Shown here in pieces: positions 1,499 through 12,361 of a stretch of DNA of 32,838 bases (its first letter is position 1; each line of letters starts with the position of its first letter). A program made the position numbers and the translations under genes. Location of the stretch: positions 1-32,838 of the forward strand of contig CAKZMO010000310.1 of the NCBI GenBank assembly GCA_937128595.1. Direction: 5' to 3'. The notes under the pieces were generated by a model. The model ran no database searches and had not been told where the DNA came from. It worked only from the letters and a program-made list of their open reading frames with translations. Source of the DNA: an uncultured cyanobacterium. Its GTDB lineage: Bacteria > Cyanobacteriota > Cyanobacteriia > CAKZMO01.

Positions 1499-2311
1499 TT
1501 AGTCCGGTTCTCGAATTGCAGCCTCTACATCGAAGAAATGTATTCGAGCTTTCCTGCCCTCATAGGCGATCGCTCCTTGATATCCAGAAATCGGACTAAA
1601 GCTTTGAAGTGTCCAACCTTCGAAAGGATTAGATCCGCGACTTGTCAACACAAGGCTAGCCGATTGAAGGCCGACTAACCCTTCTCCCTTTGCTTTCAGA
1701 TACGCTTCTTTCAATGTCCATAGGGTGAAAAAAGCGTCATCACGTTCAACAGAATCATTTTTACCAGAAGTACAGTGTGCGATCGCCTCAGATTCAGAGG
1801 GGGTGAAAAAGCGCTGGGCAATTTGTACCCCCTCTGGCATTGGGCGTATCCGTTCAATATCAACACCAATGGCGCATCCTAGCGTAAAAGCATAGAGAGC
1901 CAAATCATCGGTGTGGGTGAGGTTGAAGCTCAACGCTGACTGCTGAGACTGCAACACAGGAACGAGGGTGGGTTTGCCATGACTGCCATAGCAAAATTGA
2001 ACCTGCTCAGGGGCGATCGCCAAGTAAGCTGCTAGGAGTTGACGTAATCGACAGCGCGCCGCTGTAAACCGGAGGCGATGGTGATCGAATTTGAATCGCT
2101 GTGCTCGTTCTTGCTCATCACTCGACAGCATAAATTCGTGCTGGGCGAACCAGTCTCTTGGCATTGATAGAGGCGATCGCCATAGATGGATTGTTCCAGG
2201 GCTCAACTGCGGCACTGACTCCGGACTGACCTGCTGATAACGCCAGTGAATCGCTGGGAGAGATCTGGCAACAGTTTTTGCTAGAAAGTCAGAGTTGCCA
2301 GTCATAAGCAT
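1499..2311 (-). CDS. Sfp-type 4'-phosphopantetheinyl transferase
   Basis: The 270-residue protein has the Sfp/HetI-type PPTase signature. The Mg-binding motif GVDIE lies at about 149-153 (Asp151, Glu153), and the WTLKEAYLKAKGEGL block at about 198-212 has Trp198, Lys201 and Glu202. An upstream SFNLTHTDDLALYAF block (128-142) is also typical. These enzymes transfer phosphopantetheine from CoA to a conserved Ser of carrier proteins. It is the last gene of the ols operon, 6 bp after the 344-residue gene, so the obvious substrates are the two ACP domains of Ols; it may also serve the fatty-acid ACP (inference). Two in-frame ATGs (2311 and 2305) are possible starts and neither has a strong Shine-Dalgarno. 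Its length is usual for the family. Confidence 0.93.
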   Translation of the reverse strand: MLMTGNSDFLAKTVARSLPAIHWRYQQVSPESVPQLSPGTIHLWRSPLSMPRDWFAQHEFMLSSDEQERAQRFKFDHHRLRFTAARCRLRQLLAAYLAIAPEQVQFCYGSHGKPTLVPVLQSQQSALSFNLTHTDDLALYAFTLGCAIGVDIERIRPMPEGVQIAQRFFTPSESEAIAHCTSGKNDSVERDDAFFTLWTLKEAYLKAKGEGLVGLQSASLVLTSRGSNPFEGWTLQSFSPISGYQGAIAYEGRKARIHFFDVEAAIREPD

Positions 2312-2317
2312 TGAATT

Positions 2318-3352
2318 TTATGAAATCAGACGAATCTGGAGCCAGTCTTGAGAGAATGCCCCAGCGTCAGGCGTTTTCGGACGAATTCGAAACAAGTAAT
2401 AGCCATCCATAGGGATAGGCTCGCTGAGATAGGTTTCGTCTTCGACTTTGGCCCAAAACAATGGGAAGCTGGCTCGGTTGTAAACCGTGAGATATACGTC
2501 AAACTGTTGAACCAGCGAAGGTGCAAGCTGAAGCGAAAGGCGATCGCCTGCCTCCATTGCGTCATAGAAAAACTCCGTTTCTGGCGCACCCACGGGCAGG
2601 AACTCTTGTCGCACAAACGCAGCGGGCAACCAGCGCCGCCACCTCAGCACCGTAAACACATAGCTGTGCAGAAATCGATAGAACCCATTTGTCTGGTCGG
2701 CTAGGGTGTGATAGAAATCGTTGACTTTAGGGGAGACAGGCTGTGCGGGAATTGCTTCTTGTCCATCAATTCGCACGGTCGGAAACACCATCTGATCAGC
2801 ACACTGATAGTAGCGCAGGCCGATGGAGTAACGTCCAGCGGGAAGCGACAGTGAATACCAATCCCTCTCGTCAGAATCAGGCTGGGCCAGTTTGTTAAGA
2901 GCTTGGCTCGGAGGGGGTTCTGTTCCGTTCGCCCTAGCCTGCTCCAGGGACCCTAGATTATCGACGGTGCGGTAGGTTGGGTAGCTATAGATAGCTGCCG
3001 TCCAAGAGCCTGCGGACTGGGCGATCGCCCCCACATTCAGCGCCAATTCCTGTTCAACTCGAAATGGCCCCACCGTGCCAATTACCGCGTGAGTGTTCCA
3101 GCGGGGGCCTTTGGTCATCAGCACAGGCAAGCTCAGAGGCGATTGCAGCGTCTCGGCTGAAAGCGATCGCCATTGGGCGGCTAGTTTTTTGTTGACACCC
3201 AAATAGATCGAGTAAAGAACCCCAATCACTAGCTTGGTGAGCTTGAAGGCGACAAAAGAGGGCACTGCAATGACCAAATCCAACACGGATCCGAAGGACA
3301 TACGTCGAGATGAAGTGGATTGGGAGGTAGGCGGTGGGGCAGTTTGGGGCAT
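2318..3352 (-). CDS. conserved-looking protein of unknown function in the ols operon (344 aa)
   Basis: This gene begins 12 bp after the Ols stop codon and ends 6 bp before the PPTase gene, so it is surely part of the operon. The N-terminus is a Pro/Ser/Thr-rich tail of about 17 residues followed by a long hydrophobic stretch (about 23-52) that looks like one or two membrane helices. The rest (about 60-344) is soluble, rich in aromatic residues and predicted by eye to be mostly beta strand (for example DWYSLSLPAGRYSIGLRYY). I see no recognisable catalytic motif. It may correspond to a cyanobacterial DUF family (DUF6208 comes to mind, unverified). A membrane-attached beta-rich protein beside an alkene synthase could help handle or place a hydrophobic product, but that is only inference. 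Confidence 0.85.
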   Translation of the reverse strand: MPQTAPPPTSQSTSSRRMSFGSVLDLVIAVPSFVAFKLTKLVIGVLYSIYLGVNKKLAAQWRSLSAETLQSPLSLPVLMTKGPRWNTHAVIGTVGPFRVEQELALNVGAIAQSAGSWTAAIYSYPTYRTVDNLGSLEQARANGTEPPPSQALNKLAQPDSDERDWYSLSLPAGRYSIGLRYYQCADQMVFPTVRIDGQEAIPAQPVSPKVNDFYHTLADQTNGFYRFLHSYVFTVLRWRRWLPAAFVRQEFLPVGAPETEFFYDAMEAGDRLSLQLAPSLVQQFDVYLTVYNRASFPLFWAKVEDETYLSEPIPMDGYYLFRIRPKTPDAGAFSQDWLQIRLIS

Positions 3353-3364
3353 AACAAGTGGTTT

Positions 3365-6300
3365 CTACCCAAGATGGGATGGAGTTACAGCATCAGTGTA
3401 AATATCACGGTTTTTGACGACAGTAGCAATTGCTTCTGCAAGGGCATCGGGCGCATCCAGGTGAACGTTATGTCCTCCTGCCAGGGTGAGCCGTGACGCA
3501 TGGGCAAAGGCGATCGCCTGCTCTTCCAAATCGGTTGGTCGGTTGAACTGGCTTTTGTCTCCATAAATGAGAGTGGTCGGCACTTGAATGGCCTGCATCA
3601 TCTCGACGTATCGTGCTTTGCCAAAAGGCAAGTTATTGTAGGTGATGCCTGCACGGGTTCTCAGCAGCGGGTCCCAACGCCAGCGAACGCCTTCTTCACA
3701 AGGTTCCAAAATGCGCTTAGCGAGATCGGATGCTTGTTCCTCCGTGAGTGACGGAGTCGCCTGTCGCAACCGAGCTGCCGCCGCTGTGGCATCGGGAAAA
3801 ACGGAGTGCTGAGGCGGCGATGCCAAATAGTTGAGATGGGTAGTGAGTTGAGTCGTGGTTTCGTGGGGTTGAGGATCAGCAGGCAAAATCGTGTCTACCA
3901 AGATGAGCGATCGCACCCACTGAGGTCGCAAGCTAGCGATTAATGCGGCTAAGACTGAACCCATCGAGTGTCCCACCAAGATTAGAGATTGAGCGGATGA
4001 AGTCTCTAGGAGCTGCTGAGCCAACGTATCCACATCGCTGAGAAAATCGAGCAGATGATAGGAGCCACCCTGTCCAACATGACCCGAACGCCCGTGGCCT
4101 CTCAGATCAGGAGCTACGACGTAATAGCCCTGACTGGCAAGCGCTTGGGCAACAGGTTGCCACACCGCTCCCTGATCCAAAATGCCGTGGAGACAGAGAA
4201 TCAAGGGATCGGAAGGGTTGCCCCATGAGCAGAGACAGAGCGGCAAACCTCTCACCTCCACTTCGGTTTCTTGGCGCTGGGGAAGCGGCTGAGCTTGTAC
4301 GGCAGCTGTGACTTGAGAGCGATCGCCCTGCTGCTCAATCTCTTGTGCTTTGTGGGAGGAGGGAGACTCTGGTTTAGCAGATGGCAGGTCGTACCCAAAC
4401 CGATCGGCCAAATCTTGGGTCTGGCTCTGGAGTACTTGAGGAAGCTGAATCTGACGCCACACTTCAGCTAGTTCTGGACGCAGTTGGCGATGGTTGGAAA
4501 AGTTGGGGTCTCCCACTGATAAAGAGGAGGAATGCACTCCATCCGTCATCCGATCGCCCTCGTAGGGATTGACCATCCGAGCTTCAAAAGGAATCTTCAA
4601 TAGGTCGCATAACGATTCCATCGCCGCTTGGGGCTGAGCAACTAAATCTTCATAGCGAAGCTGGATATGGCGATCGCCATCTACCGTTGAGAGAAACTGT
4701 TGAATGTTCTGATTGCACTGGTTCCAGACCTGCTCTGCCAGGTGATAAGGATTTGGAGACGACAGTCCCAGCATTCGATCCATCCGCATTCGCACAAAGG
4801 ATTCGATGACGGAATAGGGATGGCGCACGAGGTGAATGTACCTTGCCCTAGCGAACAACGCCTCGGCGCGGTCAAGAATCGCCCGATTGATCGCGTAGGT
4901 AGGAGACTTATCGATGAGGATGCGATCGCCCGCCAGAGATTGCAGCACACCATACATCTGGTCGATTGGCAGAGCTTCGTCTACCCATGCCTGAAGCATC
5001 TGCTGGCTTGTCGCAGCATCGACTCCTTTCAGTTCCATCAGCGATCGCTGAAGTCCCTCGTTAAGATGAGCTTCGGTCAGGCGAGCTTCCCGTTCCGCCA
5101 AAGTATTGAATGGCAACAGGTGCAGCTCAGGTGCAGCAAATATTTGAGGGTGTCCGGCTAGCATCACCCGCAGCAGAGTTGAACCCGATCGAGGACTAGA
5201 GAGAATCAACACAATCCCTGGCAACTTTCGGTTCGGTATATAGGCTGGGCTGGCCTGAAGAAAGAGAGACTGCTCGATAGAAAGGGTGGCTTCGTGGGGC
5301 TGGAGTTCTTGCAAATCTGTAGGCAAACCGATATGAGCAGATCCCGCTCCATTCCGTTGCGCTAAATCAAGCGATTCTGTCTGATGAATGCGTCGAAATT
5401 CTGCAACAAGATAGGTTGCTAGGGCACTAATCTGAGGCCGTTCGTAAAATTCCCGAGGATACAGCATCAGCTGTAAGTCTTGACGGCACTGATTCATGGC
5501 TTCCATCACCATGAGAGAGTCAAGCCCCAAGTCCAGCAGATTATCCGTAGGGGCGATCGCCTCTAGGTTGAGCTGCAACACCGCTGCCATTTGCTGACGC
5601 AGGTAGTCAAGCATCAGTACCTCTTGTTGGTCAGAGCTGGCCTCCATGAGGTTGGTAAAGATCGCGGGTTGAGTGCCTGAGGCAGGTTGACTCGATGATT
5701 CACCGGACTCTATGCCAGTCCCCAGTGCCGATTTAGGTTCAAGCCAATCTGACAAATAGGATGGACAGTCCTGGGGAGCAACTCGCTGAGCTAGATCCGC
5801 CCAACGAATCGGCATGACCCCGACCTGAGCTGGAAGGCGATCGCGCTGTGTTTGCAGCAATGCCATCAGCACAGCGACACCCTGTTTGGGAGCGATCCGA
5901 TCCATCCCTGCAGTGCTCAATCGAGCTTGAGCCTGATCGTCCAACTCTGCTCCCATTCCAGCCGCATCCCACAGTCCCCAGTTGATGCTGAGGGCAGGCA
6001 ATCCGTGCGATCGTCGCAGCACTGCAAGTTCGTCTAGAAAAGCGTTGGCCGCAGCATAATTTCCTTGTCCAGGAGACCCGAGTAGCGAAGCCGCAGAGGA
6101 GAACAGGACAAAAAAGTCTAGCTCAAGATCTTGAGTCGCTCGGTGAAGATTCCAGGCTCCTGCTATTTTTGGAGCCATGACTTGACTGAACTGCGACCAG
6201 GTTTGCTGACTCAACAGCCCATCTTTGAGAACGCCCGCAGCATGGATCATTCCCTGTACCCTCAGTCCTGATGCCTGAATTTTGGCAACCAGCTGATTGA

Positions 6301-9300
6301 CCTCAACCGCCTTTGTCACATCGGTTTGAATTACTTGAACAGAGGTTTCCCCAGCTCGAATTTGATCCAAGCGATTTTGGATGGTTGTGGAAGTATCCGT
6401 GGGCGATCGCCGACTCACGAGGGTCAGATGAGATACACCTTGACGGGCAAGAGCTGCTGCGATCGTCAGTCCCAGCGCCCCCAGGCCCCCTGTGATCACA
6501 ATGGTGGTGTTAGTGGCTGTCAAAGAGAAGCCCGACTTAGCAATTTGAGGAGAGGGTTCTAGAACAGCGCGATCTGACCAGGACTGGAGCCGCAGTCCAT
6601 AGCGTTTGTGCCCCCGAACTGCGATCCAGCGTTCGCCATCGGCAGCATCTGCTAGGAGACTTTGCCGAATCCAATCGTCGAACCATGATTCTCTGGCTTT
6701 GGAAAAACTTGCCTCTTCAGTCTCTGAGCTAGTTGCGTCTACAATCCCCCCCCAGAACGAAGGATGCTCCCAAGCCATCACTTTCGCCAATCCCCAGAGC
6801 GGCGCATGAGCACAGGCAGTATGGGGTTCTGCCTCAACTCCAGGAATGGTGAGAGCTTGCTGAGTCACGATCCAAAGCTTTGGAGAAATCGGCGTTTTTT
6901 GAGGGGATGAAGTGTGGGACGCGCTGACCACTGCCTCTAGACTTTGAATCAAATACAGGACGCTTTCACATCCGTAAGATTGAGCCTGTTCCAGTTCTTC
7001 AACGGTTTCGTCAACCTCGGGTTCCAAACTCCAGAGATGGACAACACCCCGGAGAGGAGGTAGAGAAGGCGCGATCGCCACTTTTTCCAACATCTGTCTA
7101 AGGATCGAGCCATCGGCAGGAGACACAACCCAAGGGCGATCGCTTTTAGACTCAAGTTCAGCCGTGAGCTGAGCGACTGTGTCCTGATTCAACATCAGGG
7201 GTGATCCTGACTTCTCAGAGTGGTCAGCATGGTCTTCCACTGCCGATGCTTCGCTGGTGTAAATCAACACCGCAGTTTGATGGTGCGATCGCAACTGTTT
7301 TGCAATCCGCTGTCCTGTCCCTTGGCAATCAGCAAAGATAAGCCAGGTTCCAGACTTCTCGCCCGATTTGGAGGAAGGCTTTTGCCGAATGGATGGCAGC
7401 GCTACCCATTGAGGTTGGTAGAGCCAGTCTTGCCATAGCGGGGTATTGGACGAGGAGCGATCGGGACTTGCTGACTCCCATCCTGCCGTGAACCAATAGC
7501 GCTGTCGCTGCCACGGATAAGTAGGAAGTCCAACTCGGCTCTGACGGCGATAGTCTCGGTCGAAGCCAACCCAATCGACATTAACTCCGAGCGTGTAAAG
7601 GCGGCCTAAACTTTGCAGCAGTTGAGTCCAATTGGGACGGCTAGAGCGAAGGCTGGGCAACCAATGGTAAGGCTTTTCTTCATCAGCATGGGCACCGGAA
7701 ATATCCGTGAGGTGGCGACCCATGCTACACAGGGTTCCTGTCGGGCCGATCTCTAAAAAGATACGATAGCCTTGGCCTTGCAACGTTCGAACGCTGGAGG
7801 CAAACATGACGGGCTGGCGTACATGGCGACACCAGTAGTCAGCCGTAGCGATTTCGTCTCCAGCAGAACGACCCGTGAGGTTTGAAACGATGGGTAGCGT
7901 TGGCGATGCGTAGGTAATCGTCTCGGCGATCGCCCGGAACTCATTTATCATCGGTTCCATCAGGCTGGAGTGAAAGGCATGGGAAACTTGCAGCAGTCGC
8001 GATTCGATTCCATCTGCGGCGAGATGAGCGACTACGGCTTCAACAGCGGAACTTTCTCCTGAAATGACAACGTTTCGTGTGCCGTTGATGGCGGCAACAT
8101 CAACTCTTCCGTTTGTCTGCATTAATACTTCTCGAACCCGCGCTTCAGAAGCAAAGATAGCGGCCATGCTGCCCTCTTGGGAAAGAGCCTGCATCAGGCG
8201 CGATCGCGCTGCAATTAGCTTCAGCCCATCTTCTAGGCTAAAGACCCCCGCAAGACAAGCCGCCACATATTCGCCGACGCTGTGTCCCATTAGGCTGCTG
8301 GGCTGGACTCCCCACGACAGCCACAGTTGAGCCAGAGCAAATTCCAAGGCGAACAGCGCAGGCTGAGTGTAAGAGGTTTCATCAATTAGGGAATCGGCAT
8401 CGGGCAGTGGTGAGTCGGATGTGGGGTACAGCACATCCAGCAGCGGTGTTTTGAGGTAAGGGCGCAGCAAGCGATCGCACTGATCGATGGTGCGTCGGAA
8501 GATGGGCTGGGTCTGATACAGGTCATGACCCATGTTGATGTATTGAGAACCTTGCCCGGTGAACAAAAATGCGACGGGGCACTGTCCCGACTCAGCCGTG
8601 CCTTCAGTCCAAGGGAGAGTGCGAGTGGTTTGAATAGGCTGTAAATAATCGCTGAGGTGTTGCTGAAGTTCTTCCAAATCTGATGCGGCGATCGCCAACC
8701 GACGGCTCAGGGGCGTTCGGCCTGTGTTTAGGGTAAACCCAATATCTCCGACGGACGGCGCAGTATCAGCATCAAACCGCTCCAGATAGCTCAGGTGTGA
8801 TTTGACTAAAGCTTTGAGCGCAACCTCATTTTTGGCTGATAAGGTGACGAGATGTAGGGGGCGATCGCAAGTTGGGGTGCGCTGGCCTGCAACAGGAACT
8901 GCAGGCAGTTGTCGCTTGAGTTCCTGGGAACTTGGAGCCGTCGAAGTCGGTAGAGGCGGTTCTGACAAAACAGCATGAGCGTTGGTTCCGCCAAAGCCAA
9001 AGGAACTCACCCCTGCAATGCGGCGATCGCCCATGCCCTCACCCACTATCCAATCTTGAGCCTGAGTAGGAATGTGAATCGGCGTGTCGTCTAGATGAAT
9101 ATGAGGATTAAGGGTTTGGAAATGGAGGTGGGGTGGAATCTCGTGATGCTGCAACGCCAAGACGACTTTCATCAAGCCTGCCATGCCTGCGGCTGATTCT
9201 AAATGGCCGATGTTCGTTTTCACTGAGCCAATCCAGCAGGGCTGATCGGGCGATCGCCCCTGCGCCAGCACGTCCTTTAGGGAATTGAGTTCAATCGGAT

Positions 9301-12300
9301 CTCCCAGAGACGTTCCTGTCCCGTGGGCATCGACATAGCTGATCTGGTTGGGCGTCACGCCTGCTCGTCCTAGCGCCTGCCGAATCACGGCTTGCTGGGC
9401 TGGGCCATTGGGAGCTGTGAGGCCGTTGCTACGACCGTCTTGATTGATGGCCGTTCCCTCAATCACAGCCAGAATCGCATTACCATCTTTTTGAGCCGCA
9501 GATAACGGCTTCAGCACCACCACGCCGCAACCTTCTCCGCGCACATAGCCATCCGCCTCATCGTCAAAGGTCTTGCAGCGGCCATCGGCAGCCATCATTC
9601 CCGCTTGGGTAAAGGTAGCGGTGAGATCCGGCGACAAAATCAGGTTGACACCTCCGACAATGGCTTGGCTACAGTCTCCCTGAAGGAGCTGTTGACAGGC
9701 GACGTGAACAGCTACGAGAGAGGACGAACAGGCAGTATCCACAGCAAGGGATGGCCCCCGCAAATCGAGGATATAGGAAAGGCGATTGGCGGCAATGCTA
9801 TGGGCATTACCTGTTCCAGAATAGGGGTCGTGGGCAGTGGCGTAGCGATCGCCCGATTGAGTTTGCAGTTGCGAATAATCCGTGTTGCTAATGCCGATGA
9901 AAACACCCGTGTTGCTCCCTGCCAAGGTATGGGGCGCGATCGCGGCATATTCCAATGCTTCCCAGGTGACTTCCAACAGGAGGCGCTGCTGCGGATCCAT
10001 CCGGTTCGCTTCGCGGGGAGAAATACCGAAAAACTGAGGGTCAAACTGATCGACCTGTTCAAGGAATCCGCCCGTGGATGATTCTCCTCGCCCGTGCCAC
10101 CGATCGCCAATGGAAGAGATAGCATCACGTCCCTGTTTCAACACAGTCCAGAACTCATCGGGATTGGCAGCTCCAGGAAAGCGACAACCCATGCCAACAA
10201 TGGCGATCGCTTCGGAATCAGCTAGGCGAGTCGATGGCTTGACCTGAGATTCCTTGGTTTGCGTTCCATCTACAGAAGCCGCAGATTCGAAATCTCCCAA
10301 ATAGCTGGATAGAGCCGCAATGGTGGGGTAGTCGTAGACCAGAGTAGGAGAGAGCGATCGCCCAAGCCATTCTTCTAAATCACCGGACAGCCGAACTGCC
10401 GTAACGGAATCAAGACCATAGCGCGCAAACGGTTCTTGTGGGTCAATAGACGCGGTTGATAGTCCCAAATGGCTGGCGACTTGAGCGACAAGCCAAGACT
10501 GAATGGCAAGTACCGATTGAGAAGGAGTCCGTACGAGTAACGGCGACAAGGAGTCTACGCTTTCGCTGGCGTCAGATTCAGAAATAGCTGGACTTGAAGT
10601 GTGGGTCTGATCGGCTTCCAGCCATTGCCCCACAATGTCGAGGGTTCCTTGAAGAAACCCGTCTTTGCAGGCATGGCGACGAATTTTGCCGCTGGAAGTT
10701 TTGGGAATGCTGCCTGTTTTCAGGAGCAACACCCCATAGGTTTGCAGTTGATGATGCTGGGCGATCGCCTGTCGCACTGCTTGAGTCACTTCATTGACCT
10801 TTAGACGACGCAGGGCACGGCGTTCCACTTCTTGGGCAATGAGTAGCCGTTCCTCTCCGTTCACCTCTACGGAGAAAGCGGCGTTGCAGCCCTGACGCAG
10901 ATCCTCATGGCACTGATCGACCGTCAGCTCAATATCCTGGGGATAGTGATTGAGACCGCGAATGATGATCAGGTCTTTGATGCGTCCAGTGACGTAAAGT
11001 TCGCCTTGATGCAAAAAGCCCAAATCACCAGTCCGTAAGAAGGGGCGATCGCTCAACTCTGCAGGAAGCGACTGAGCCGGATCATAGATTCGTGCATAAA
11101 ACACATCTTGAGTTTGCTGAGGTCGATTCCAGTACCCTTGAGCAACGCTATCGCCAGATACCCATATTTCGCCCACTTGATTATCGTCGCAAAGGGTCTG
11201 GTCATCGGGATGGGTAATGACCAATTGCTGATCGGGGTGGCAGTGTCCACAGCTCACCAGAACTCGAGACTCTGGTGTTTCGGGAATAACGACTGCTCGA
11301 TTTTGTTCCAGCCGAGAACCGTCCACCGATAGCAGCGTGGGAGCCGTTGGGCGATCGCCTCCCGTGACAAACAGGGTGGTTTCTGCCATGCCGTAGCACG
11401 GATAAAACGCTTCTTTTCGAAAACCGCAAGGGGAGAATGCATCCACAAATCGCTCAAGGGTCTCAGCTCGAATGGGTTCCGCACCACTAAACGCCAAAGA
11501 CCAGCGACTTAAATCAAGCTGTTCTTTCTGAGTATCAGTAATTTGGCGAATGCAGAGATCGTAGGCAAAGTTGGGGCCACCACTTGTTGTGGCTTGATAG
11601 CGAGAGATGGTCTGAAGCCAACGGTAGGGGCGCTGCAAAAAGCTGACGGGAGACATCAACGCCATTGGGATGCCCAAAAACAGAGGTTGCAAGACACCGC
11701 CAATCAGCCCCATGTCGTGATAGGGCGGCAGCCACGACACGGCGCGGGTCTGCTCAGTATCTTGAAAGCTATCGCGGATAAGATTGGCGTTATGCAGCAA
11801 GTTGCCGTGACTGACCATCACACCCTTGGGTGTCCCGGTGGAACCTGAGGTGTATTGCAAAAAAGCCAGATCAGCAGGCGAGACCTGCGGCTCGAACCAA
11901 TTTTGCTCTCTTCCCGTTTCACGAGTGAGTGTATCAGTTGTAAACCAGTTGAGTGCTGAAAAATCAGGGTTTTTGGCAAGCAACCGCTCCATATTCCCCA
12001 ACTGAGATTCAGTCGTCAACGCCACGGTTGCTCCTGAATCAGCCATGATCGCTCGTAACCGATCAAGCGTCTGGTTAGGACGGGGCGGATAGGCCGGAAC
12101 CGCTAAAACTTTGGCATACAGGCACCCCATGAATGCCGCCACAAATTCTAAATTGGGCGAGTAGAGCAACAAGGCTCGCTGATCCTGGAGGTTTCGATCT
12201 TGCAATGCAGCGGCGATCGCCCGCGCCTGCCGATCGAGTTCCCCATAGGTGAGTCGTCCGTCTTCCTCCTCGCCGTCCCGCAAAAAAACAAAAGCTTGCT

Positions 12301-12361
12301 TATCCGGTTGTGTAGAGGCTCTGAAGCGTAGGAGTTCAACGAGAGTAGAGAATTCAGACAT
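3365..12361 (-). CDS. ols: olefin synthase, modular type I PKS making terminal alkenes
   Basis: This 2998-residue protein has the full domain order of the cyanobacterial Ols pathway. It starts with a fatty acyl-AMP ligase (about 1-590; TSGSTGTPKG near 170) and ACP1 (GLDS, Ser652). The ketosynthase (about 715-1140) has DTACSSS with Cys878, DAHGTGTSLGDP and KTNIGHLESAAG. The acyltransferase has GHSVGEY with Ser1361 and HAFHS, which suits malonyl-CoA. The ketoreductase has TGGLGALG near 1955 and Tyr2102 in GNYAAANAF. ACP2 (GLDSLMVM, Ser2282) is followed by a PAPS-dependent sulfotransferase (SSPRSGSTLLR near 2386-2396) and an alpha/beta-hydrolase thioesterase (GHSMGS, Ser2799). By analogy with characterised Ols and CurM, a fatty acid is activated, extended by two carbons, reduced to the beta-hydroxyacyl form, sulfated, then hydrolysed and decarboxylated to a 1-alkene. 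It is somewhat longer than the roughly 2700-residue PCC 7002 protein, probably through linkers. It starts the operon with the two genes downstream. Confidence 0.96.
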   Translation of the reverse strand: MSEFSTLVELLRFRASTQPDKQAFVFLRDGEEEDGRLTYGELDRQARAIAAALQDRNLQDQRALLLYSPNLEFVAAFMGCLYAKVLAVPAYPPRPNQTLDRLRAIMADSGATVALTTESQLGNMERLLAKNPDFSALNWFTTDTLTRETGREQNWFEPQVSPADLAFLQYTSGSTGTPKGVMVSHGNLLHNANLIRDSFQDTEQTRAVSWLPPYHDMGLIGGVLQPLFLGIPMALMSPVSFLQRPYRWLQTISRYQATTSGGPNFAYDLCIRQITDTQKEQLDLSRWSLAFSGAEPIRAETLERFVDAFSPCGFRKEAFYPCYGMAETTLFVTGGDRPTAPTLLSVDGSRLEQNRAVVIPETPESRVLVSCGHCHPDQQLVITHPDDQTLCDDNQVGEIWVSGDSVAQGYWNRPQQTQDVFYARIYDPAQSLPAELSDRPFLRTGDLGFLHQGELYVTGRIKDLIIIRGLNHYPQDIELTVDQCHEDLRQGCNAAFSVEVNGEERLLIAQEVERRALRRLKVNEVTQAVRQAIAQHHQLQTYGVLLLKTGSIPKTSSGKIRRHACKDGFLQGTLDIVGQWLEADQTHTSSPAISESDASESVDSLSPLLVRTPSQSVLAIQSWLVAQVASHLGLSTASIDPQEPFARYGLDSVTAVRLSGDLEEWLGRSLSPTLVYDYPTIAALSSYLGDFESAASVDGTQTKESQVKPSTRLADSEAIAIVGMGCRFPGAANPDEFWTVLKQGRDAISSIGDRWHGRGESSTGGFLEQVDQFDPQFFGISPREANRMDPQQRLLLEVTWEALEYAAIAPHTLAGSNTGVFIGISNTDYSQLQTQSGDRYATAHDPYSGTGNAHSIAANRLSYILDLRGPSLAVDTACSSSLVAVHVACQQLLQGDCSQAIVGGVNLILSPDLTATFTQAGMMAADGRCKTFDDEADGYVRGEGCGVVVLKPLSAAQKDGNAILAVIEGTAINQDGRSNGLTAPNGPAQQAVIRQALGRAGVTPNQISYVDAHGTGTSLGDPIELNSLKDVLAQGRSPDQPCWIGSVKTNIGHLESAAGMAGLMKVVLALQHHEIPPHLHFQTLNPHIHLDDTPIHIPTQAQDWIVGEGMGDRRIAGVSSFGFGGTNAHAVLSEPPLPTSTAPSSQELKRQLPAVPVAGQRTPTCDRPLHLVTLSAKNEVALKALVKSHLSYLERFDADTAPSVGDIGFTLNTGRTPLSRRLAIAASDLEELQQHLSDYLQPIQTTRTLPWTEGTAESGQCPVAFLFTGQGSQYINMGHDLYQTQPIFRRTIDQCDRLLRPYLKTPLLDVLYPTSDSPLPDADSLIDETSYTQPALFALEFALAQLWLSWGVQPSSLMGHSVGEYVAACLAGVFSLEDGLKLIAARSRLMQALSQEGSMAAIFASEARVREVLMQTNGRVDVAAINGTRNVVISGESSAVEAVVAHLAADGIESRLLQVSHAFHSSLMEPMINEFRAIAETITYASPTLPIVSNLTGRSAGDEIATADYWCRHVRQPVMFASSVRTLQGQGYRIFLEIGPTGTLCSMGRHLTDISGAHADEEKPYHWLPSLRSSRPNWTQLLQSLGRLYTLGVNVDWVGFDRDYRRQSRVGLPTYPWQRQRYWFTAGWESASPDRSSSNTPLWQDWLYQPQWVALPSIRQKPSSKSGEKSGTWLIFADCQGTGQRIAKQLRSHHQTAVLIYTSEASAVEDHADHSEKSGSPLMLNQDTVAQLTAELESKSDRPWVVSPADGSILRQMLEKVAIAPSLPPLRGVVHLWSLEPEVDETVEELEQAQSYGCESVLYLIQSLEAVVSASHTSSPQKTPISPKLWIVTQQALTIPGVEAEPHTACAHAPLWGLAKVMAWEHPSFWGGIVDATSSETEEASFSKARESWFDDWIRQSLLADAADGERWIAVRGHKRYGLRLQSWSDRAVLEPSPQIAKSGFSLTATNTTIVITGGLGALGLTIAAALARQGVSHLTLVSRRSPTDTSTTIQNRLDQIRAGETSVQVIQTDVTKAVEVNQLVAKIQASGLRVQGMIHAAGVLKDGLLSQQTWSQFSQVMAPKIAGAWNLHRATQDLELDFFVLFSSAASLLGSPGQGNYAAANAFLDELAVLRRSHGLPALSINWGLWDAAGMGAELDDQAQARLSTAGMDRIAPKQGVAVLMALLQTQRDRLPAQVGVMPIRWADLAQRVAPQDCPSYLSDWLEPKSALGTGIESGESSSQPASGTQPAIFTNLMEASSDQQEVLMLDYLRQQMAAVLQLNLEAIAPTDNLLDLGLDSLMVMEAMNQCRQDLQLMLYPREFYERPQISALATYLVAEFRRIHQTESLDLAQRNGAGSAHIGLPTDLQELQPHEATLSIEQSLFLQASPAYIPNRKLPGIVLILSSPRSGSTLLRVMLAGHPQIFAAPELHLLPFNTLAEREARLTEAHLNEGLQRSLMELKGVDAATSQQMLQAWVDEALPIDQMYGVLQSLAGDRILIDKSPTYAINRAILDRAEALFARARYIHLVRHPYSVIESFVRMRMDRMLGLSSPNPYHLAEQVWNQCNQNIQQFLSTVDGDRHIQLRYEDLVAQPQAAMESLCDLLKIPFEARMVNPYEGDRMTDGVHSSSLSVGDPNFSNHRQLRPELAEVWRQIQLPQVLQSQTQDLADRFGYDLPSAKPESPSSHKAQEIEQQGDRSQVTAAVQAQPLPQRQETEVEVRGLPLCLCSWGNPSDPLILCLHGILDQGAVWQPVAQALASQGYYVVAPDLRGHGRSGHVGQGGSYHLLDFLSDVDTLAQQLLETSSAQSLILVGHSMGSVLAALIASLRPQWVRSLILVDTILPADPQPHETTTQLTTHLNYLASPPQHSVFPDATAAAARLRQATPSLTEEQASDLAKRILEPCEEGVRWRWDPLLRTRAGITYNNLPFGKARYVEMMQAIQVPTTLIYGDKSQFNRPTDLEEQAIAFAHASRLTLAGGHNVHLDAPDALAEAIATVVKNRDIYTDAVTPSHLG

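Follow-up and report, generated by a model that had tools for sequence, protein, structure and literature searches.

The olefin synthase Ols has so far been regarded as one enzyme that needs no partner. In Picosynechococcus sp. PCC 7002, deletion of Ols abolishes alkenes, and the mutant is unable to grow at 27 °C (PMC6361979). According to two papers, the releasing end of Ols works as it does in CurM of the curacin A pathway and HlaB of the haliamide pathway: a sulfotransferase (ST) domain sulfates the β-hydroxyl group and a thioesterase (TE) domain releases the terminal alkene (PMC3903477, PMC6274090). These ST-TE termini are the type of enzyme to which we tie the protein family DUF6208 here, and the accessible text of both papers describes no accessory protein of this kind. 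The Aar/Ado pathway has the same physiological output, namely membrane hydrocarbons, but its proteins are unrelated to those encoded by ols and the DUF6208 gene.

The window, i.e., the whole stretch of 32,838 nucleotides from an uncultured cyanobacterium analyzed here, carries an ols gene on the minus strand (3365..12361) whose 2998 aa product shows the Pfam domain order FAAL-ACP-KS-AT-KR-ACP-ST-TE. The ST domain (PF13469, residues 2384-2593) is encoded at 4583..5212 and the TE domain (PF00561, alpha/beta-hydrolase, residues 2719-2971) at 3449..4207, both on the minus strand. The gene under study (2318..3352, minus strand) is an open reading frame for 344 aa with an ATG start and a TAA stop, which starts 12 bp downstream of the ols stop codon and ends 6 bp upstream of a gene for an Sfp/HetI-type phosphopantetheinyl transferase (PPTase; 1499..2311, minus strand; PF01648/HetI-like). 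A first-pass annotation of the window had called the product an unrecognized protein. Its family is in fact recognizable, since it matches DUF6208 (PF19713) with an E value of 8e-110 and 367 bits against a curated cut-off of 25, over profile positions 7-290 of 316, and is thus a full-length member; what holds is that no function is on record. The Pfam entry comes without one; the new element here is the link between the family and alkene-forming synthases of the ST-TE type. NCBIfam contains no model matching the window protein, we found no mention of DUF6208 in the literature, although an earlier Ols phylogeny might have noted the neighboring gene, and searches found neither DUF6208 among viral contigs nor a solved structure matching it by sequence. 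The gene is single copy in the source genome. In a profile search across 96 cyanobacterial genomes, DUF6208 was either strongly matched or at noise level, with nothing between.

The same annotation had placed the gene between Ols and the PPTase as parts of one operon. This arrangement is real in the window, but the PPTase is not a conserved neighbor: it was seen again beside DUF6208 only at loci L101 and L104, on the opposite strand. As it is not a regular neighbor in other loci, we rejected the PPTase as a member of the conserved ols-DUF6208 unit. No other PPTase (PF01648) was detected in the source genome, and it therefore probably serves fatty acid synthesis as well. About 370 bp downstream of the PPTase gene, the window encodes a Ser/Thr protein kinase of 270 aa (319-1131).

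To relate DUF6208 to Ols beyond the window, we scored both across the class in a sample of 390 genomes. The cut-off for DUF6208 was exceeded in 35 genomes and the Ols ST and TE domains were present in 34; 33 genomes had both, two had only DUF6208, one had only Ols, and 354 had neither. The Fisher p-value of 2e-44 ignores kinship and is descriptive only; phylogeny was allowed for in these counts by within-genus contrasts only, and many of the genomes are metagenome-assembled (MAGs). Far from being widespread in genomes without ols, which the first-pass annotation had regarded as the outcome that would speak against its proposal, the family thus nearly coincides with Ols. In the Ols-only genome (G317), ols abuts the end of its contig and the downstream side is missing. 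Of the two DUF6208-only genomes, G384 is a MAG of 73% completeness in which a contig begins with DUF6208, whereas G370 is a real mismatch that seems to have lost the ST-TE module.

Such a pattern could in principle reflect a passenger gene that resides near ols by chance or through shared ancestry, as the genes adjoin in many genomes and both are inherited within the same clades. However, about nine genomes keep both genes although they are unlinked (e.g., G163, G388, G156, G352, G197, G154, and G081; in G163, ols lies at 1.23 Mb and DUF6208 at 2.36 Mb), showing that linkage or hitch-hiking is not the cause of the association. An unlinked pair occurs in Picosynechococcus sp. PCC 7117, a close relative of PCC 7002, with DUF6208 about 1.1 Mb away from ols. 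The unlinked DUF6208 copies have variable neighbors, and no common neighborhood was found for them. Presence and absence also agree within genera: G081 has both genes while G012 and G059 have neither, and the same pattern distinguishes G044 and G092 from G069 and G080. Together with the separate DUF6208 copies of second synthases described below, these data refute a passenger origin as a general explanation, and we consider it extremely improbable.

Scanning GTDB with the DUF6208 alignment yielded 79 loci, 41 of which include an ST domain in the same stretch. In 40 of these 41 linked loci, DUF6208 is located downstream of the ST synthase and has the same orientation, at a distance of 300 bp or less in 30; the lone exception, L097, is convergent. 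For the 38 loci without a nearby ST, ST-TE matches were present elsewhere in 34 of the 38 genomes. Two of these matches are weak: in G422 only part of the TE is present where the contig breaks off, and in G423 there is a 40% ST only. The four genomes without any ST-TE match (G395, G401, G425, and G429) are all MAGs. Evolutionary distances of DUF6208 and of the ST domain were correlated in a mirror-tree comparison (r 0.78 over 43 pairs, with none of 2000 permutations exceeding 0.19), and the partial correlation given accA was 0.65 (15 pairs). Altogether, it is highly probable that ST-TE synthases have a functional partner in DUF6208, which is very likely an overlooked component of hydrocarbon production in cyanobacteria.

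We then asked which part of the synthase DUF6208 is associated with. Ols starts from fatty acids via its FAAL domain (PMC3903477), and, given the membrane-facing anatomy of DUF6208 described below, the protein might deliver free fatty acids from the membrane to this loading domain. FAAL-less multimodular ST-TE synthases, however, also carry DUF6208. At L180 and L181, DUF6208 precedes a three-gene polyketide synthase (PKS) without FAAL, whose last gene has the order KS-AT-KR-ACP-ST-TE. At L107 (70% GC) and L113 (74% GC), from an Acidobacteria and an Actinobacteria bin, DUF6208 directly follows a FAAL-less multimodular PKS ending in ST-TE. Substrate delivery to FAAL was thus rejected as a general role, and we regard it as very unlikely.

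The bins that contain an ST-TE synthase together with DUF6208 at L107, L113, L101, and L104 are named Acidobacteria, Actinobacteria, Phycisphaerae, and Crocinitomicaceae. Neither L107 nor L113 looks like cyanobacterial DNA. Between L101 and L104, identity is 95% although their bins belong to different phyla, so that at least one of them must be misbinned.

We then tested the prediction that a genome with two ST-TE synthases would have two DUF6208 genes. A search with ST-TE, in which DUF6208 was not used, revealed second ST-TE PKSs in G431, G434, and G436, and all three have their own DUF6208, 46-72 bp downstream and with E values below 1e-117. In Symploca SIO1C2, which has two cassettes, the DUF6208 and the ST of each cassette have the same outside relatives. 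As a negative control we used G128, G265, and G423, in which an ST of about 40% identity resides in NRPS-like genes without the TE; no DUF6208 was found alongside these ST domains. Loci L182, L183, and L184 contain an ST about 40% identical to the Ols ST inside NRPS-like genes that lack the alkene-forming TE. In the reverse direction, DUF6208 is present in 33 of 34 Ols genomes, the exception being cut at the contig end, and beside three of three second synthases, a count that leaves out the curacin CurM and haliamide HlaB loci. The pairing is one DUF6208 per ST-TE synthase.

The mismatched genome G370 has the same cluster as L180 and L181, except that a different thioesterase and a methyltransferase stand in for the third gene. 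At this locus (L141, G370:C56, 5500-16463), a TubC-docking/thioesterase gene and an LCM methyltransferase gene are found where the ST-TE gene was. Since the related L180 and L181 clusters end in ST-TE and a 40-aa remnant of an ST-TE-type TE persists between the methyltransferase and the next gene, this exception looks like a recent ST-TE loss. Directly upstream of DUF6208, these three-gene PKS clusters encode EF-hand proteins (L180, 17256-18565; L181, 962-1567; L141, 17588-18844), which would be compatible with a possible calcium link.

Thus, the data strongly support a partnership of DUF6208 with the ST-TE alkene-releasing terminus, including that of Ols and of FAAL-less modular PKSs. The first-pass annotation had suggested that the gene is an undescribed part of alkene production. 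The co-occurrence supports this, but the partner is the ST-TE terminus and not Ols alone.

Independent evidence that ols and DUF6208 form a unit comes from their chromosomal location, as the two genes make up a cassette that replaces ado-aar. Of the 79 loci, 19 have accA downstream of DUF6208 in the same orientation, within 4 kb in 16 of them, and an SDR gene is also present in 13. The ado-aar neighborhood of most cyanobacteria consists of the same accA/SDR surroundings (PMC4094844), so that the two pathways share one locus upstream of accA-SDR in many lineages. The loci with ols-DUF6208 directly upstream of accA, often together with SDR, come from many lineages and comprise L066, L078, L095, L099, L100, L109, L117, and L119 as well as L124, L128, L129, L132, L133, L134, and L140. 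Where a sampled genome has Ado/Aar but no ST-TE synthase, DUF6208 was not found, except in G370 with its decayed synthase. We conclude that ols and DUF6208 are co-transferred as a unit.

In one family of loci (f10), the gene order is creatininase-ado-ols-DUF6208-accA-SDR and aar was undetected. Its loci L148 (G010:C36, 2930-17727) and L149 (G092:C60, 3075-17956) encode a complete Ols beside ADO, and the ADO retains all six iron-ligand positions. G069 and G080, close relatives of the f10 ols carriers, have aar and no ols. In published surveys, no cyanobacterium was reported to have both pathways or remnants of them (PMC3903477, PMC6361979). Judged from the gene content, f10 looks like a pathway swap caught half-way, in which ADO would be orphaned or have a new aldehyde source. 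In G010 only, an extra ORF is inserted between ols and DUF6208 (L148, 13889-14671); it encodes 260 aa with a hydrophobic N-terminus and has no match in Pfam or NCBIfam.

To learn how DUF6208 might act, we analyzed an AlphaFold2 model built from 30 homologues (mean pLDDT 87, pTM 0.83) together with residue conservation in 87 homologues. The model agrees with the first-pass description of one hydrophobic N-terminal stretch followed by a beta-rich, aromatic-rich body, and all elements listed here are encoded on the minus strand. The N-terminal stretch is a single 34-residue helix (residues 20-53, 3194..3295; pLDDT about 87-96), which hydropathy and residue conservation mark as a probable monotopic membrane anchor. 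It is followed by the motif R-W-N-x-H (residues 84-88, 3089..3103), in which R84, W85, and N86 are kept in 87/87 and H88 in 86/87 homologues, and by a first beta-sandwich domain (residues about 88-206, 2735..3091). This domain includes the motif G-x-Y-x-x-G-x-R-x-Y (residues 173-182, 2807..2836), with G173, Y175, R180, and Y182 in 87/87 and G178 in 84/87 homologues. An aromatic and basic helical linker (residues 210-251, 2600..2725; predicted helices 210-220, 223-237, and 244-251) with the invariant residues N211 and Y231 might provide a second membrane-contacting element. The C-terminal part is a second beta-sandwich domain (residues about 258-343, 2324..2581), in which F261 and R322 are invariant. 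W61, Y122, P191, and P253 are likewise invariant or nearly so.

Based on hydropathy and the predicted helix, DUF6208 is probably membrane-attached. The first-pass annotation had called the protein "membrane-anchored"; its hydrophobic helix does not resemble a textbook transmembrane helix. Hydropathy reaches 1.87 over 19 residues, some homologues are only moderately hydrophobic in this region, and positions 37 and 40 within the helix are Lys or Arg, rarely His, in every one of the 86 homologues spanning this region; Ser32 is also kept in 86/86. Because these basic residues and Ser32 are retained inside the hydrophobic helix, a predicted position within one leaflet (monotopic) would fit better than a membrane crossing.

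The invariant polar residues R84, N86, H88, R180, Y182, N211, and R322, as well as the tie to the releasing and not the loading end, would be consistent with DUF6208 being an enzyme that works on the chain or the product during release, e.g., by assisting sulfated-thioester hydrolysis or by modifying the alkene. However, in line with the earlier remark that no catalytic motif is visible, DUF6208 has neither a hydrolase triad nor a metal-ligand set, and none of the invariant positions in the 87 homologues is Cys, Asp, or Glu, the sole invariant Ser being in the membrane helix. A classical hydrolase site is thus absent, and with no conserved nucleophile-His-acid set in the 87 homologues a catalytic hydrolase or thioesterase was rejected. 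The best structural matches include no enzyme. In addition, ST and TE domains tested in vitro as isolated domains are enough to bring about sulfation and release by decarboxylation (cited in PMC3903477), showing that the chemistry does not need DUF6208. An enzymatic role therefore appears quite unlikely to us. R84, N86, H88, R180, N211, and R322 could constitute a binding or active site, and the conservation pattern is suggestive of a possible Arg/Asn/His-rich binding pocket.

Structural comparison of the model with Foldseek gave 2p3y, 3vb9, 6ans, and 3u07 as the best matches, with E values of about 5e-6, probability 1.0, TM of about 0.44, and an rmsd of 11-13 Å. We take these structures (2p3y and 3vb9 being VPA0735) to be DUF1254/DUF1214 proteins. 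Such proteins have two beta-rich domains, as does DUF6208, but are not related to it in sequence: profile-profile comparison (hhalign probability 0.7%, E 0.08) led us to reject such a relation, and 30 DUF6208 members gave no match to PF06742 or PF06863. The distribution of DUF1214 in cyanobacteria is independent of ols, and we treat the likeness as a fold resemblance only. The GOLD-type beta-sandwich of p24 proteins (5azw, 5gu5) is also similar, with a 91-column stretch matching p24beta1 (probability 1.00, TM to target 0.55). This is again a fold resemblance only, as it concerns one domain at 15-19% identity in proteins of the eukaryotic secretory system.

The two beta-sandwich domains would suit protein-protein binding, and the one-to-one pairing and co-variation with ST-TE could also be explained if DUF6208 were a scaffold or chaperone, either soluble or peripheral, with a role in stabilizing the ST-TE region or the synthase dimer and none in membranes or product transfer. 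This would leave the hydrophobic N-terminal helix unexplained, which is present in 86/86 homologues covering it and keeps the basic positions 37 and 40, and we consider such a role unlikely. Given its tie to ST-TE, a helix that seems to seek membranes and the lack of enzyme-like residues, the most plausible role of DUF6208 is to position the releasing end at the membrane or to take up the alkene, and the predicted anatomy would suit both docking to a membrane and handling of a hydrophobic product. We infer that DUF6208 is attached to a membrane, contacts the synthase, handles the product, and is not catalytic. In the mechanism that we propose, the partner synthases are those whose last module ends in ST-TE and from which the terminal alkene would be released by sulfation and decarboxylation. 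DUF6208 would be seated on the cytoplasmic face of the membrane via its N-terminal helix and the basic and aromatic elements, and its beta-sandwich body would bind the ST-TE end of the synthase or take over the alkene at this point, which would let the water-insoluble product pass straight into the bilayer. As a whole, this mechanism of a non-catalytic, membrane-associated docking or product-receiving protein has, in our view, about an even chance of being correct. We put forward only tentatively, and with more doubt than belief, that DUF6208 is the first hydrocarbon-handling PKS partner, a membrane-seated receiver on ST-TE that moves the alkene to the bilayer, is required in vivo, and serves Ols and modular synthases in several phyla.

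If Ols has an obligatory partner, the alkene output of engineered hosts may have suffered from its omission. DUF6208 would then offer a way into the old question of how a hydrocarbon that is insoluble in water gets from a soluble megasynthase to membranes. The family would also mark genomes with synthases that form terminal alkenes, among them multimodular ones outside cyanobacteria that are still unexplored, and the locus common to ols-DUF6208 and ado-aar shows one hydrocarbon pathway replacing another.
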